DNA of 64,000 nt, taken from Citromicrobium sp. JLT1363. Its GTDB lineage: Bacteria; Pseudomonadota; Alphaproteobacteria; Sphingomonadales; Sphingomonadaceae. Position numbers and translations under genes: made by a program. A model generated the notes under the pieces. It saw only the letters and a program-made list of their open reading frames with translations. It was not told the DNA's origin and searched no databases. The stretch is taken from NCBI RefSeq assembly GCF_000186705.1, contig NZ_AEUE01000001.1:124001-188000 (forward strand), in the 5' to 3' direction. Shown in pieces: positions 47,954 through 52,425 of this stretch. How positions within the stretch are numbered: position 1 is the stretch's first letter; each line of letters begins with the position of its first letter.

Positions 47954-49035
47954 GGAAGGAGGTGGCCGGAACGATCGCGTTTGGTCGCCAGATAGCGGGT
48001 GTTGTGAGGATTGGTGCCCGTGTCCAAGGGAAGCCTTTCGACGATTTCGACGTTCTGTTCTTCCATCGCGGTAAGCTTCGCGGGGTTGTTCGTCAGCAGG
48101 CGGATACGTGAAATCCCCAGTAGTAAAAGCATCCGTCCCGCAATGGGAAAGTCTCGCGCCTCGTCGGGCAGGCCGAGCCGCTGGTTCGCCTCCACCGTGT
48201 CGTAGCCCTGCTCCTGAAGCTGGTACGCGCGCAGCTTGTTCACGAGGCCGATCCCGCGCCCTTCCTGCCGCAGGTACAGGACCACCCCGTAGCCGCCTTT
48301 TTCCGCCTCCTGCGCGAAGGCGTGCAGCGCGCTGTCGAGCTGCGGCCCGCAATCGCACTTCAGGCTGCCGAAGACATCGCCGGTCAGGCATTCGGAGTGA
48401 ATCCGCACGAGCGGAACCTTGTCCGCGCTCTGGCGCCCGATGATGAGCGCGGCATGTTCGCGCAGATCGGCGGGGGAACGGAAGATCGCGATTTCCGCCT
48501 GCTCCGCCGCCGCGGTGGGCAGGCGGGTGCGCGCAGCGATGCGCAGGCTCTCGGGGGCGGCGAATGCGGCAAGGTCCGCCGTGGCCACGGCCACCGGCTG
48601 GTCCGCCGGTGCCGGATCGAGCATGAAGGCCGGCAGGATGCCCGCGTGGCGCGCGATTTCGAGCGCGGTCGCGGGCCACTCCGTCCCCGGCAGCGCGAGC
48701 GCGCGAAACGGACCTTTCATCGGGCTTGCCAGATCGAGCGCGGGATCGCCCACGCTTCGTGCCAGATCGAGCGTGAAGGGCTCGCCACCCTCGATCAGGA
48801 CGGGTGCGTGGGGCACCGCGGCTTCCCGCTGGTTGGCCAGCTTAAGCGTCTGCGCACGCGCCGCGGAAATCAGCATCGTGTCTGAATGTATATCGGGGCT
48901 GGGCGCGGTTTCGACCGGCAGCAGCACCGGGCCATCGTCCACCGCGATCGGCCAGCCGTGGCGCAGCGCGTCTATCGCCTGCGCCAGCGCCCGCGCGTTG
49001 CCAGGCGCGGCGCCGCCCGTATCCCTCCCGCTCAG
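47950..49035 (-). CDS. ribA: GTP cyclohydrolase II, long form with degenerate RibB-like N-terminal domain
   Basis: First step of riboflavin synthesis from GTP. The C-terminal half (about 190 residues) is a standard GTP cyclohydrolase II: HSECLTGDVFGSLKCDCGPQ with three zinc Cys, RQEGRGIGLVNKLRAYQLQ and NNPAKL. About 160 residues precede it and look like a decayed DHBP synthase: AIDALRHGWPIAVDDG then LEIARHAGILPA, without the catalytic acidic stretch. The true start is unclear: the frame passes the xthA stop with an in-frame CTG at 49035 overlapping it, and the first GTG is at 48942 (330 residues). The chosen end is the CTG because the similarity to RibB-like sequence starts upstream of the GTG. 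Confidence 0.85.
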   Translation of the reverse strand: MSGRDTGGAAPGNARALAQAIDALRHGWPIAVDDGPVLLPVETAPSPDIHSDTMLISAARAQTLKLANQREAAVPHAPVLIEGGEPFTLDLARSVGDPALDLASPMKGPFRALALPGTEWPATALEIARHAGILPAFMLDPAPADQPVAVATADLAAFAAPESLRIAARTRLPTAAAEQAEIAIFRSPADLREHAALIIGRQSADKVPLVRIHSECLTGDVFGSLKCDCGPQLDSALHAFAQEAEKGGYGVVLYLRQEGRGIGLVNKLRAYQLQEQGYDTVEANQRLGLPDEARDFPIAGRMLLLLGISRIRLLTNNPAKLTAMEEQNVEIVERLPLDTGTNPHNTRYLATKRDRSGHLLP

Positions 49036-49829
49036 AGGTCGAACTCCGTGGTCAGCGGAACATGGTCGGACGGACGCTCCCAGTTGCGCGCCTCTTCCAG
49101 GATGGAATGCTTGGTGGCCTGCTTCGCGAGTTCGGGGCTGGCCCACATGTGGTCGAGTCGGCGGCCCTTGTCGTTGGTCTGCCAGTTGGGATTGCGATAG
49201 CTCCACCAGCTGTAATAGCGCTCCGGCGCGGGCACATGCTCGCGGCCGATATCCCTCCAGCCGTGCGCATCCATGAAGCGCTGCAGCGCCTCGACCTCTA
49301 CCGGCGTATGGCTCACCACCTTCAGCAGCTGCTTGTGGCTCCACACGTCGCTTTCCAGCGGGGCGATGTTGAAATCGCCCACGATCAGCGTCGGCTGGTC
49401 GACCGTGTCGGCCCAGCGCGCCATCCGCTCCAGAAAATCGAGCTTCTGGCCGAACTTGGCGTTCACCTCGCGGTCGGGCACGTCGCCGCCTGCGGGCACG
49501 TACACGTTCTCAACCACCATGCCCTGGTGCGCGGGATCGGTCAGGCGCACGCCGACATGGCGGGCCTCGCCATTATCCTGCCAGTCGTGGCGGGAGATTT
49601 CCTCGAACGGGACGCGGCTGACCGTGGCCACCCCGTGGTATCCCTTCTGCCCGTGGATCGCGATATGATCGTAGCCCAGTTCGCGGAAGGCCTTGGCGGG
49701 GAACTGCTCCTCCACGCACTTGATCTCCTGCAGGCACAGGATGTCGGGCGCGTGGGCCGTGAGAAACTGCTCCACCAGCGGCATGCGCAGGCGGACCGAA
49801 TTGATGTTCCAGGTAGTGACAGAAACCAT
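49032..49829 (-). CDS. xthA: Exodeoxyribonuclease III (AP endonuclease)
   Basis: 265 residues of the EEP fold, acting in base excision repair. TWNINSVRLR (Asn), LCLQEIKC (metal Glu near residue 33), VYVPAGGD, VGDFNIAPLESDVW (Asp/Asn), and RLDHMW with the terminal PSDHVPL (catalytic Asp-His) are all present. The start at ATG 49829 matches the family N-terminus; ribA follows with overlap. Confidence 0.95.
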   Translation of the reverse strand: MVSVTTWNINSVRLRMPLVEQFLTAHAPDILCLQEIKCVEEQFPAKAFRELGYDHIAIHGQKGYHGVATVSRVPFEEISRHDWQDNGEARHVGVRLTDPAHQGMVVENVYVPAGGDVPDREVNAKFGQKLDFLERMARWADTVDQPTLIVGDFNIAPLESDVWSHKQLLKVVSHTPVEVEALQRFMDAHGWRDIGREHVPAPERYYSWWSYRNPNWQTNDKGRRLDHMWASPELAKQATKHSILEEARNWERPSDHVPLTTEFDL

Positions 49830-49963
49830 GCGCGCGGACTTAGGGCGCGTATCGGCACGCGGCAAGCCGGAGCGGCAGGCGCGGCGCGTGCGACACGCAG
49901 TTGTCTCATTGATGCGCAATGGGCATAGGCGCTTAGCTAAATTGCCGCGCCAGGGAGCCTGCC

Positions 49964-51427
49964 ATGATCCGCACCGATAGCCATCACGCCAAGCGCTGGG
50001 CGACCGCGCTGGCAGCACTCGTTTCGCTGCCGCTCGCGGCGTGTACCACCACGACCAACTATTACGGCGAGGAAGCACAGGCCCGGGCCGCCCCCGCACC
50101 GATTGCTGCGGAGCGCAAGGCGAAGAACGTGATCCTGTTCGTCGGCGACGGCATGGGCATTTCCACGATCACCGCCGCGCGCATCCTGGCCGGGCAGCAG
50201 CAGGGCCAGCCGGGCGAGGACTACCAGCTGAGCTTCGAGAAGTTCGACAATGTGGCGCTGGTGAAAACCTACAACACCGATGCGCAGGTGGCGGACAGCG
50301 CGGGCACGGCTTCCGCCCTCAATACCGGCACGAAGACGCGGATCGGCGTCATCAACACCGCCCCCGACGTTCCCCGTGGCGATTGTGCCGCTGCGCAGGG
50401 CCACCTGCTGCAGCCGATCGCGGTCGAGGCGCAGGAGCGGGGCAAGGCGGTCGGCATCGTCAGCACCGCAAGGCTTACCCATGCGACCCCGGCGGCGGTC
50501 TACGGCCATAACCCGGATCGCAACTGGGAAGCCGATTCGGACATTCCCGAAAGCCAGCGCGCGCTGGGCTGCACCGATTTCGCGCAGCAGCTGGTCGAAT
50601 TTCCCTTCGACCTCGCCCTGGGGGGCGGTGCGCGCAAGTTCTACGGCAGCGCCAGGGGGGGCAGCCGCGCGGACGCGAATGCCGATCTCCCCGCGCAGTG
50701 GGCAGCCCGGACGGGCGGCACCGTCGCCACCAGTACCGCCTCGATGCGGCAGGCTCCGCTCGGTACGCCGGTGCTGGGCCTGTTCTCGGCCAGCCACATG
50801 ACCTATCAGCTGGACCGGACCGCGCAGACCGAAGAACCGACACTGACGGAAATGACCGCCGAATCGATCCGGCGCCTCTCCGACGATCCCGACGGCTATT
50901 ACCTGATGGTCGAAAGCGGACGGATCGACCACGGGCATCATGCCGGGCAGGCCGGCTACGCGCTGGAGGAAACGGTCGAGTTCGCCCGCGCGATCCAGTA
51001 CGCGGTCGACAACACCGATCCCGAAGAGACGCTGATCCTGGTCACTGCGGACCACAGCCACGTCTTCACCATTGCGGGCTATCCCAAGCGGGGCAATCCG
51101 ATCCTGGGCCTGGTCCATCCGCCCGAAAGCGGTGACGAGGACCATCCCGGCGCCGCGAACGACGAACCGATCCTTGCCGCCGACGGCAAGCCCTACACCA
51201 CTCTGGGCTACGCCAACGGCCCCGGTGCGGTGCAGGGCGAGCGACCGGTGCCGGAGACGCGCCCCGATGCCCGCCAGCAGGCGCTGGTGCCGCTGGGCGC
51301 GGAAACCCACGGGGGCGAGGACGTCGCGCTGTTCGGCACCGGTCCGGGAGCGCAGCGCGTCCGCGGGGTGATCGAGCAGAACCGCGTCTACGACATCATG
51401 CGCGCCGCGTTCGGCTGGGACGAATAG
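49964..51427 (+). CDS. phoA: Alkaline phosphatase, lipoprotein
   Basis: 487 residues, exported with a lipobox LPLAACTTTT. Periplasmic phosphomonoesterase. Metal and nucleophile sites are present: ILFVGDGMGISTI (Asp), QVADSAGTASALNTG with the nucleophile Ser in DSA, ESGRIDHGHHAG (Glu, Asp, His), VTADHSHVF (Asp, His) and ETHGGEDVALF (His). The site reads DSAGTAS where E. coli PhoA has DSAAS. It is divergent from xthA. A Pho-box was not recognised. Confidence 0.93.
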   Translation: MIRTDSHHAKRWATALAALVSLPLAACTTTTNYYGEEAQARAAPAPIAAERKAKNVILFVGDGMGISTITAARILAGQQQGQPGEDYQLSFEKFDNVALVKTYNTDAQVADSAGTASALNTGTKTRIGVINTAPDVPRGDCAAAQGHLLQPIAVEAQERGKAVGIVSTARLTHATPAAVYGHNPDRNWEADSDIPESQRALGCTDFAQQLVEFPFDLALGGGARKFYGSARGGSRADANADLPAQWAARTGGTVATSTASMRQAPLGTPVLGLFSASHMTYQLDRTAQTEEPTLTEMTAESIRRLSDDPDGYYLMVESGRIDHGHHAGQAGYALEETVEFARAIQYAVDNTDPEETLILVTADHSHVFTIAGYPKRGNPILGLVHPPESGDEDHPGAANDEPILAADGKPYTTLGYANGPGAVQGERPVPETRPDARQQALVPLGAETHGGEDVALFGTGPGAQRVRGVIEQNRVYDIMRAAFGWDE

Positions 51428-51450
51428 GGCGAGGCTCTATCGCTGCCACT

Positions 51451-51471
51451 CCGGTCCGCATCCCGGACCGG
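51451..51471. repeat. Inverted repeat after the alkaline phosphatase gene
   Basis: CCGGTCCG-CATCC-CGGACCGG is a perfect 8-bp hairpin 24 nt past the stop, followed by CAAAAG rather than a T-run. Could help stop or stabilise the mRNA but is not a standard intrinsic terminator. Confidence 0.5.
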
Positions 51472-51542
51472 CAAAAGCGCGCGAGCGCATGGATAGCCGG
51501 CACGCGAATGCGCGCACTGGCGCCTGAGGCACATCGAAAAGG

Positions 51543-51563
51543 AAAAACCCCCGCGCCGGGGGC
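51543..51563 (-). terminator. Intrinsic terminator ending a minus-strand transcript
   Basis: On the minus strand, CCCCCG-GCG-CGGGGG is followed by TTTTTCC and further T residues. It lies about 200 nt beyond the lolA stop and directly after the closing helix of the candidate RNA. Confidence 0.85.
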
Positions 51564-51714
51564 TGTGGCACGGGGGTTCCCTACGAGCGTTCGTCACGCT
51601 TGCGACAAGGCCCTGGTATGAGGGAACTGCGGGGCAACAGGGGGGAAACCCGCAGATTCGTCAGGCCTTGTGATTTGGAAATTAGGCCGCCGTGCCTTGC
51701 CTACGCATGAACAT
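51543..51714 (-). ncRNA. Candidate structured small RNA, 6S-like in outline
   Basis: A 332-nt gap without a gene (51428-51759) holds nested complementary segments. A closing helix GGCACGG/CCGTGCC joins 51567-51573 and 51690-51696. Inside are CAAGGCC/GGCCTTG (51606-51612 with 51664-51670), CTGCGGG/CCCGCAG (51627-51633 with 51649-51655), AGCGT/ACGCT (51586-51600), and an alternative GTTCCCT/AGGGAAC (51576-51582 with 51621-51627) that excludes or pseudoknots with the first. On the minus strand the closing helix is followed after 4 nt by the terminator at 51543-51563, and a TAAAAT -10-like box lies at 51722-51727, predicting a transcript of about 170 nt. Closing stem, open centre with a 3'-side hairpin and apical stem is the plan of 6S RNA, but I cannot match the sequence. 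Confidence 0.55.
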
Positions 51715-51759
51715 GGCGGGCATTTTACCGCTCACACCGGGCATCGCTCGACGAACGGT

Positions 51760-52425
51760 TTAGCGCGGTCGACGGGATGCGCGGCGCGGGTCCTTGTAGG
51801 TGAACGTCGAGTTGCTCACCGACACGCCATAGCGCTGGTTGGCCAGCCGCACCGTGGTGCGGTTGTTCTGCGCATCCAGCGCCACCCAGTTGGTCAGCTC
51901 CCAGCCGCCCGGCGCCTTGCCGTTGCGCACGAAGATCAGCGTGATCATGCCGTATTCGGGCTTGTTCGGGTCGCGCACCTCGACCGAAAGCACGTCCGGA
52001 TTGCCAGTGTTGCGCAGCTTGCCGTACTTCTTCACGTCACGATTGGGATCGAGCAGAGCGCCCAGCGGCGAATTGCTGATCGGCCAGCGCTGGACCTGAT
52101 TGACCTCGTAATCGATCATGGTCAGCGACTTGCCGTTGGAGACGATCAGCAGCGGCACATCGTCGGCATATTCGAAGCGAATCTTGCCCGGACGCTTCAG
52201 CGTCATCTTGCCGCGCACGGTCTGCCCGCTGCGGTCGGTCTGGGTGAAGTCGGCGCGCATCGTCTCGATCCCGCGCAATGCGGCCACCGCATTATCGAGC
52301 GTGCCCGATGCGGCAAAAGCGGGAGCAGGCAGCGCGATGGCGCCCGCGACGGGCACGGCGCCGATCAGGGCGAGACTGGCAAGCCCGGCGAACGGGCGGC
52401 GAAGCGTGGATTTCATGGTCGTCAT
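51760..52425 (-). CDS. lolA: Outer-membrane lipoprotein carrier protein LolA
   Basis: 221 residues, exported (signal ending APAFAASG). Carries lipoproteins from the LolCDE exporter to the outer membrane. MRADFTQTDRSGQTVRGKMT, LKRPGKIRFEYADDVPLLIV, SNGKSLTMIDYEVNQVQRWP are the LolA strand pattern. Many lipoproteins in this window would be its cargo. The start MTTMKST at 52425 has ACGGAG upstream; an in-frame ATG 9 nt downstream is an alternative. Confidence 0.92.
   Translation of the reverse strand: MTTMKSTLRRPFAGLASLALIGAVPVAGAIALPAPAFAASGTLDNAVAALRGIETMRADFTQTDRSGQTVRGKMTLKRPGKIRFEYADDVPLLIVSNGKSLTMIDYEVNQVQRWPISNSPLGALLDPNRDVKKYGKLRNTGNPDVLSVEVRDPNKPEYGMITLIFVRNGKAPGGWELTNWVALDAQNNRTTVRLANQRYGVSVSNSTFTYKDPRRASRRPR

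Follow-up and report, generated by a model that had tools for sequence, protein, structure and literature searches.

What does the gap between an alkaline phosphatase gene and lolA encode in Citromicrobium sp. JLT1363? The window analyzed here is a stretch of 64,000 nucleotides of this genome (contig NZ_AEUE01000001.1, positions 124,001 to 188,000), and coordinates below are positions in it unless a locus or contig is named. A preliminary description, made from the letters of the window, had proposed that the gap holds a structured small RNA on the minus strand with its own terminator. This proposal is strongly supported by covariation, by the spread of the RNA over the order, by its fixed neighborhood and by the lack of a common open reading frame. 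It is close to certain that the locus is a real conserved RNA gene. As we outline it, the gene occupies 51543..51671 on the minus strand and would yield an RNA of ~129 nt; a covariance-model match spans 51544-51674 at 134.3 bits, and 96 homologues were aligned. The 5′ end near 51671 was placed by means of a -10-like box and the 3′ end by the T run. The strand and the terminator of the RNA first drawn are thus retained, but its outline is replaced by one running from ~51671 to 51543 with three hairpins.

The upstream neighbor is lolA (51760..52425, minus strand; PF03548, E 4e-24), and a convergent alkaline phosphatase gene (49964..51427, plus strand; PF00245, E 5.2e-111) adjoins the RNA on the other side. 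Beyond it, at 49032..49829 on the minus strand, lies what we take to be xth (exodeoxyribonuclease III), named from its sequence and from the locus description in the paper on RusT, a small RNA of Caulobacter crescentus discussed below. This gene is the usual downstream neighbor of the RNA, and in the lineage of the window the phosphatase gene separates the two (49829-51543). Of the 96 homologous loci, 94 have lolA upstream in the same orientation as the RNA, and in 92 of the 94 it is no more than 450 nt away. On the downstream side, 62 loci continue with xth in that orientation and 28 with a convergent phosphatase gene; in the stretch examined for the remaining 6, neither xth nor a phosphatase gene was found. 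A position in the lolA-xth gap, on the same strand as lolA, is the placement of RusT.

Structure and conservation of the RNA

The RNA is predicted to form three hairpins: a long 5′ hairpin, a nearly invariant second hairpin and a terminator hairpin, all on the minus strand. Hairpin 1 (51606..51670), which comprises helices 1 and 2 of the alignment and also appears in single folds, has an outer stem of CAAGGCC (51670-51664) paired with GGCCTTG (51612-51606) and an inner stem of CTGCGGG (51655-51649) paired with CCCGCAG (51633-51627). Its conserved C-rich loop is UUUCCCCCCUGUUG, and the C-rich stretch UUUCCCCCCUGUUGCC (51633..51648), whose final CC is also part of the inner stem, is the presumed seed for pairing with mRNAs. 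Hairpin 2, AGCGUGACGAACGCU (51586..51600), is nearly invariant with the core letters GCGUGACGAACGC and is possibly a site for Hfq or for targets. Hairpin 3, the terminator (51543..51578), joins arms at 51578-51567 and 51557-51546 around the loop ACAGCCCCC (51566-51558), which holds a conserved GCCCCC, and ends in the T run at 51547-51543. The GC stem and minus-strand T run already noted in the preliminary description proved to be the sole terminator-like site of this kind in 51400-51900, where 0.4 would be expected from shuffles.

The minus strand of 51697-51543 folds at -65.7 kcal/mol, a value equaled by 3 of 200 dinucleotide shuffles (z -2.78). The fold of the full 172 nt was matched by 2 of 200 shuffles for the minus strand and 3 of 200 for the plus strand; because the two strands score alike against shuffles, folding energy alone cannot give the strand. 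When 18 loci were folded singly, hairpin 1, hairpin 2 and the terminator appeared in the same order, with the interior of hairpin 1 varying.

Covariance among homologues had been named as a check on the proposed structure. In an alignment of the 96 loci (A4; 93 distinct rows), whose fit to the covariance model R1 makes its pair counts lean toward the modeled structure in a way that the 18 single folds do not, compensatory changes were found at 29 of the 31 modeled pairs, and standard pairs filled 94.4% of the cells of these pairs. Both-sided changes numbered 494 cells compared with 121 in shuffles, and controls with slid partners gave at most 50.3% paired cells and 113 compensatory cells. Helices 1 and 2 of hairpin 1 carried compensatory changes at 12 of 12 modeled pairs (90.9% and 85.0% of cells paired, respectively), as did helices 4 and 5 of the terminator at 14 of 14. 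The stems of hairpins 1 and 3 thus vary in letters and keep their pairing. Conserved letters were found at three places: CCCCTGTT of the C-rich loop in 92 of 96 homologues, the hairpin 2 motif GCGTGACGA[AG]CGC in 84, and GCCCC near the 3′ end in 95. At L105, L112, L128, L129 and L380, hairpin 2 is altered or absent and the terminator loop is kept. The contrary outcome that had been named in advance, a protein-coding gap, is rejected, as the homologues have no reading frame in common and their lengths fall into all residues modulo 3.

All of the complementary stretches listed in the preliminary description are present in the sequence, and homologues sort them. The CAAGGCC/GGCCTTG helix, now the outer stem of hairpin 1, has compensatory changes at 7 of 7 pairs in the 96 homologues. 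The long-range closing helix, GGCACGG/CCGTGCC, did not survive this comparison: over the 79 of 96 loci passing filters, a mean of 3.33 of 7 pairs could form, against 3.41 with shuffled partners, and all seven pair only in the window (L001) and its near-twin (L002). The 5′ half of this helix, GGCACGG, lies upstream of the conserved -10-like box, and CCGTGCC belongs to the terminator stem as its inner left arm. The GTTCCCT/AGGGAAC pairing, offered as mutually exclusive or pseudoknotted with the outer stem, exists in the window, but a run of 6 or 7 of its pairs is seen in just 10 of the 96 loci, and 8 of these 10 belong to the window's genus; the mean run is 3.45 compared with 3.31 in shuffles, and 7 of 200 shuffles reach it. 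This pairing is at most a genus trait, and the idea that the RNA acts as a switch has little support because the alternative helix occurs mainly in the genus.

The 96 loci are a selection spread over genera and drawn from several searches rather than the full set of matches. From 103 matches, A4 omits seven as spurious (L146 twice, L147, L148, L149, and second matches in L073 and L108). One genome carries the RNA in two identical 3.1-kb stretches (G017:C2:14701-14809 and 2573860-2573968; L019 and L010), which are probably an assembly overlap, and L019, being equal to L010, was excluded from the set.

Distribution in the Sphingomonadales

A DNA search found the RNA in 18 of 40 genomes, the window's own included, and R1 was built from 15 of those 18 loci (training alignment A2; L002, L005 and L006, omitted there, are present in A4). 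Applied to 296 genomes of the order, R1 matched 212 at E <= 0.01, of which 209, again including the window's own, belong to its family and 3 lie outside it. At least four genomes of the family were without a match among the genomes listed, besides which there are 64 other non-matching genomes. With laxer filters, three of those four matched at E <= 1.5e-5, and G014 was still without a good match.

In a sample of the class, R1 matched 18 of 385 genomes, five of them in the window's family and the other 13 weakly, and nothing credible appeared outside the order in these 385 genomes, where four outside loci were inspected. The outside matches L146-L149 were rejected, matching mainly the terminator and having neither lolA nor xth nearby. 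A pattern of the two best-kept parts of the RNA occurred in 5 of the 385 class genomes, all of the window's family. In a named collection the same pattern was found in at least 119 stretches, and 71 of the 80 loci listed are from Sphingomonadales. Seven others of the 80 listed are assigned to Tannerella, Mangrovihabitans, Phycisphaerales, Paenibacillus, Williamsia, Burkholderia and Verrucomicrobiia, and these may be chance matches or contamination.

A second covariance model was run on 40 genomes from other families of the order and matched 6 at E <= 0.1, two of these matches (G025 and G050) being members of its training set. The new loci L378 (40.4 bits), L379 (30.2 bits) and L380 (24.3 bits) each lie between lolA and xth, and this fixed place supports homology where the sequence alone is weak. 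L381 (20.7 bits), without a credible lolA or xth match, was taken as chance. Judged by such matches, the predicted RNA gene is kept across the family to which the window belongs, and two other families of the order have it too. An RNA that at least 209 genomes of a single environmental family carry, in a fixed place and with nearly invariant loops, is probably a core regulator. No Rfam 15 family matched the RNA at gathering scores, in the window or at 20 homologue loci. In the open-access literature, a scope that most subscription papers fall outside, we recognized no description of this RNA in sphingomonads.

A promoter element shared with a cyclophilin gene

Upstream of the RNA lies a putative promoter element, GTTCAT (51712-51707) followed after six bases by GCAAG (51700-51696), which together span 51696..51712 on the minus strand. 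After GCAAG come eleven bases, the -10-like box TAATTT (51679..51684, minus strand) and then the start of the RNA. The preliminary description had instead pointed to a TAAAAT box (51727-51722), which is found at about this distance in only 5 of 96 homologues, the window and its near-twin among them; TAATTT is the box that is conserved, the conservation lying in its leading TA (T 96% and A 97% in column counts over 91 loci, which were anchored on TTCA, making that motif 100% by construction, with 5 of the 96 loci lacking a full-length row and row L063 anchored on the wrong TTCA). At 79 of 96 loci TTCA, GMMA and TA follow one another at fixed spacing, and 62 of the 96 have the full pattern, RTTCAT-N6-GMMAG-N11-TA.

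All 10 genomes of the genus, the window's own included, carry exactly two sites of the full pattern, one ahead of the small RNA and the other ahead of a gene for an exported cyclophilin. The cyclophilin gene of the window's genome (L287:779-1462, on G000:C21, minus strand) encodes a cyclophilin-type peptidyl-prolyl isomerase with a signal-peptide-like start. The cyclophilin-gene site was also found in G011 and G013; G012 combines the RNA site with a different second site, the single full-pattern site of G014 precedes a small secreted protein, and in G010 the full pattern is absent. Three full-pattern sites were found among nine genomes of other families, and one or more of the three fall within a coding frame; the reversed pattern, used as a control, occurred once over all 24 genomes. 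This element, common to the RNA and one cyclophilin gene, offers a handle on the regulator.

The two half-sites stand 11 bp apart and end 11 nt before the -10-like box, a layout that resembles the sites of PhoB-type regulators, which replace a -35 box by a comparable placement of half-sites. ChvI was rejected as the regulator, since its motifs as given in the available part of a report on it, TTGC-N3-GCAA and GCC-N8-GCC, do not fit the element (PMC9731502). The CenR motif, again from the accessible part of its report, is TGA-N8-TGA (PMC9275681). Set against it, an element with GACAG as its second half-site, the form found ahead of the cyclophilin gene, gives TGT-N8-TGA in reverse complement; with the window's half-site, GCAAG, it does not.

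Relationship to RusT and alternative explanations

The comparisons above establish, at the level of sequence, a covarying non-coding RNA gene with a terminator behind lolA, and a promoter element with one other site in the genus. As described in the available text of its report, RusT (CCNA_R0199) of C. crescentus is a 118-nt, Hfq-bound RNA encoded between lolA and xth; it has four stem-loops, an Hfq site at nt 72-87 and a seed at nt 45-57, is under NtrX control and responds to zinc and to iron chelation by induction; the TonB-dependent receptors and OmpW are among what it represses (PMC11005374). That text, so far as available, places homologues in Caulobacteraceae and does not contain the string 'Sphingomon' (PMC11005374). 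Because the lolA-xth gap is the RusT locus, a RusT-like trans-acting small RNA is the best reading, and we hold with reasonable confidence that the rusT locus here carries the gene of a trans-acting small RNA. Action in trans is likely in itself.

The sphingomonad RNA shares with RusT its gap and a similar length (~129 compared with 118 nt), a terminator with a U tail, a hairpin directly before the terminator, and an unpaired stretch that is conserved and presumably acts as the seed. Counted from a 5′ end at 51671, nt 72-86 would form hairpin 2, compared with nt 72-87 for the Hfq site of RusT. In contrast, it has three hairpins and RusT four stem-loops, the last being the terminator in both; its C-rich loop lies at about nt 24-39 and not at nt 45-57; and it has conserved loops and a promoter element of its own, whereas RusT is under NtrX. 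In sum, the place, the size and the two 3′ hairpins fit RusT; for the seed and the 5′ half a fit is not obvious. Kinship of the two RNAs is probable, resting on the place, the size and the order of the 3′ hairpins.

The differences in hairpin number and in the place of the C-rich loop, together with the lack of a credible R1 match outside the order, could also indicate a Sphingomonadales small RNA family with C-rich loops that does not descend from RusT, the gap having gained a small RNA twice. We consider such an independent origin unlikely, though it is the alternative to be taken most seriously; the same gap between the same genes, the similar length and the hairpin just before the terminator in both RNAs speak against it. 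The strand and the close position behind lolA in 94 of 96 loci would also suit a processed 3′ end of the lolA transcript or an elaborate lolA terminator. This seems improbable given the conserved promoter-like element between lolA and the RNA, and given conserved loops, an invariant hairpin 2 and a covarying 5′ hairpin that would be superfluous for termination.

A leader or attenuator of xth, which the 62 loci with xth downstream on the same strand might suggest, is very improbable: a convergent phosphatase gene intervenes in 28 of 96 loci, the window included, the 3′ hairpin is a terminator, and members of the family do not generally keep the alternative helix. Least probable of all, with hardly any likelihood in our view, is 6S RNA or a 6S-like RNA, which the preliminary description had sketched as a closing stem, an open center and an apical stem. 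That closing stem is not conserved; RF00013, the Rfam model proposed as a check, had no match in the window at its gathering score and none in the gap up to E 10; and the genome has a separate 6S gene elsewhere (G000:C21:315681-315849, L043), which scores 47.9 bits with RF00013, narrowly above the cut-off. In 36 of 40 relatives RF00013 had a match at E <= 1.

The history of the RNA may be extended tentatively, with rather more doubt than conviction: an ancient small RNA in the lolA-xth gap of Alphaproteobacteria would predate the split of Caulobacterales and Sphingomonadales, and in Sphingomonadales it would keep a strict C-rich seed and belong to a small regulon, with the exported cyclophilin, under an envelope-sensing regulator.

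Proposed mode of action and targets

There is a fair probability, by analogy, that the RNA works like RusT or like GsrN (see below). In the mechanism we propose, a response regulator would act at RTTCAT-N6-GMMAG upon a disturbance of the envelope (or of iron supply), and the RNA would bind Hfq through its U tail and perhaps through hairpin 2. Hairpin 1, through its C-rich loop, and perhaps the terminator loop too, would then pair with G-rich stretches close to the ribosome-binding sites of target mRNAs. This pairing would mostly lower the translation of the targets, much as RusT in Caulobacter acts on the mRNAs of outer-membrane transporters. The likely mechanism is a response to envelope or metal stress in which the C-rich loops, together with Hfq, pair with ribosome-binding sites that are rich in G. 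Since its place is shared with RusT, a role of the RNA in outer-membrane remodeling under stress is directly testable in strains that are easy to grow.

Searches for targets gave no convincing candidate. The window's genome has 12 copies of the loop complement AACAGGGGG, one of them at the RNA's own locus, compared with 9 occurrences of the reversed pattern. Three sites lie just before start codons, those of a YbjN-family protein, an unknown protein and an HU/IHF-family protein; a further site is 41 nt ahead of an rpoH-like start. Perfect loop complements of 9-10 nt were seen at L280:1500-1822 (the HU/IHF-family start, and likewise in the near-twin G007) and at L276 (rpoH-like). Over 24 genomes, AACAGGGGG followed by ATG within 2-18 nt was found 112 times against 20 for the reversed pattern, an excess that purine-rich ribosome-binding sites alone would give. 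A few of these sites recur within the genus (one, for example, stands before a gene in G003, G005 and G009), and no target common to the relatives was found among the AACAGGGGG sites of the 24 genomes. The mRNAs of TonB receptors, targets of RusT, paired with the loop no better than background: their mean energy was -10.8 kcal/mol (30 genes, out of 37 plug-domain matches, with starts set by crude rules and two of the 30 doubtful) versus -9.9 kcal/mol for 56 window genes, and 6 of 30 versus 10 of 56 reached -13 kcal/mol or better.

Other small RNAs

C-rich loops are known from other alphaproteobacterial small RNAs. In GsrN of C. crescentus, as the available part of its report describes it, six C in an exposed 5′ loop pair with G-rich stretches of mRNAs; GsrN is driven by sigma-T (EcfG type), and the same part states that Erythrobacter litoralis has no gsrN-like gene (PMC5869019). 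The RNA described here is like GsrN in its C-rich 5′ loop. It differs in its locus, with lolA and xth or a phosphatase gene as neighbors where genes of the GsrN kind usually lie close to ecfG/phyR, and in the kind of its promoter element; inspection by eye of the 170 bases upstream of the RNA revealed no EcfG-type promoter site. PmaR of Agrobacterium tumefaciens, according to the accessible text, also acts on mRNAs through a C-rich loop, forms one long stem with a single loop, and is limited to Agrobacterium and one Rhizobium strain (PMC6234868). The C-rich loop is common to both, but three hairpins here stand against one long stem there. From the available parts of two descriptions of Zymomonas small RNAs, none could be mapped onto the small RNA locus (PMC6970203, PMC7064620).

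The best sub-threshold Rfam match, anti-hemB (RF02837; 23.2 bits, E 0.0029), was rejected against a gathering score of 49.5; it leans on the GC-rich terminator. In one relative, a suhB/mmgR small RNA (RF00519, 45.5 bits; L105:544-619) lies ~0.9 kb from the lolA-side RNA.
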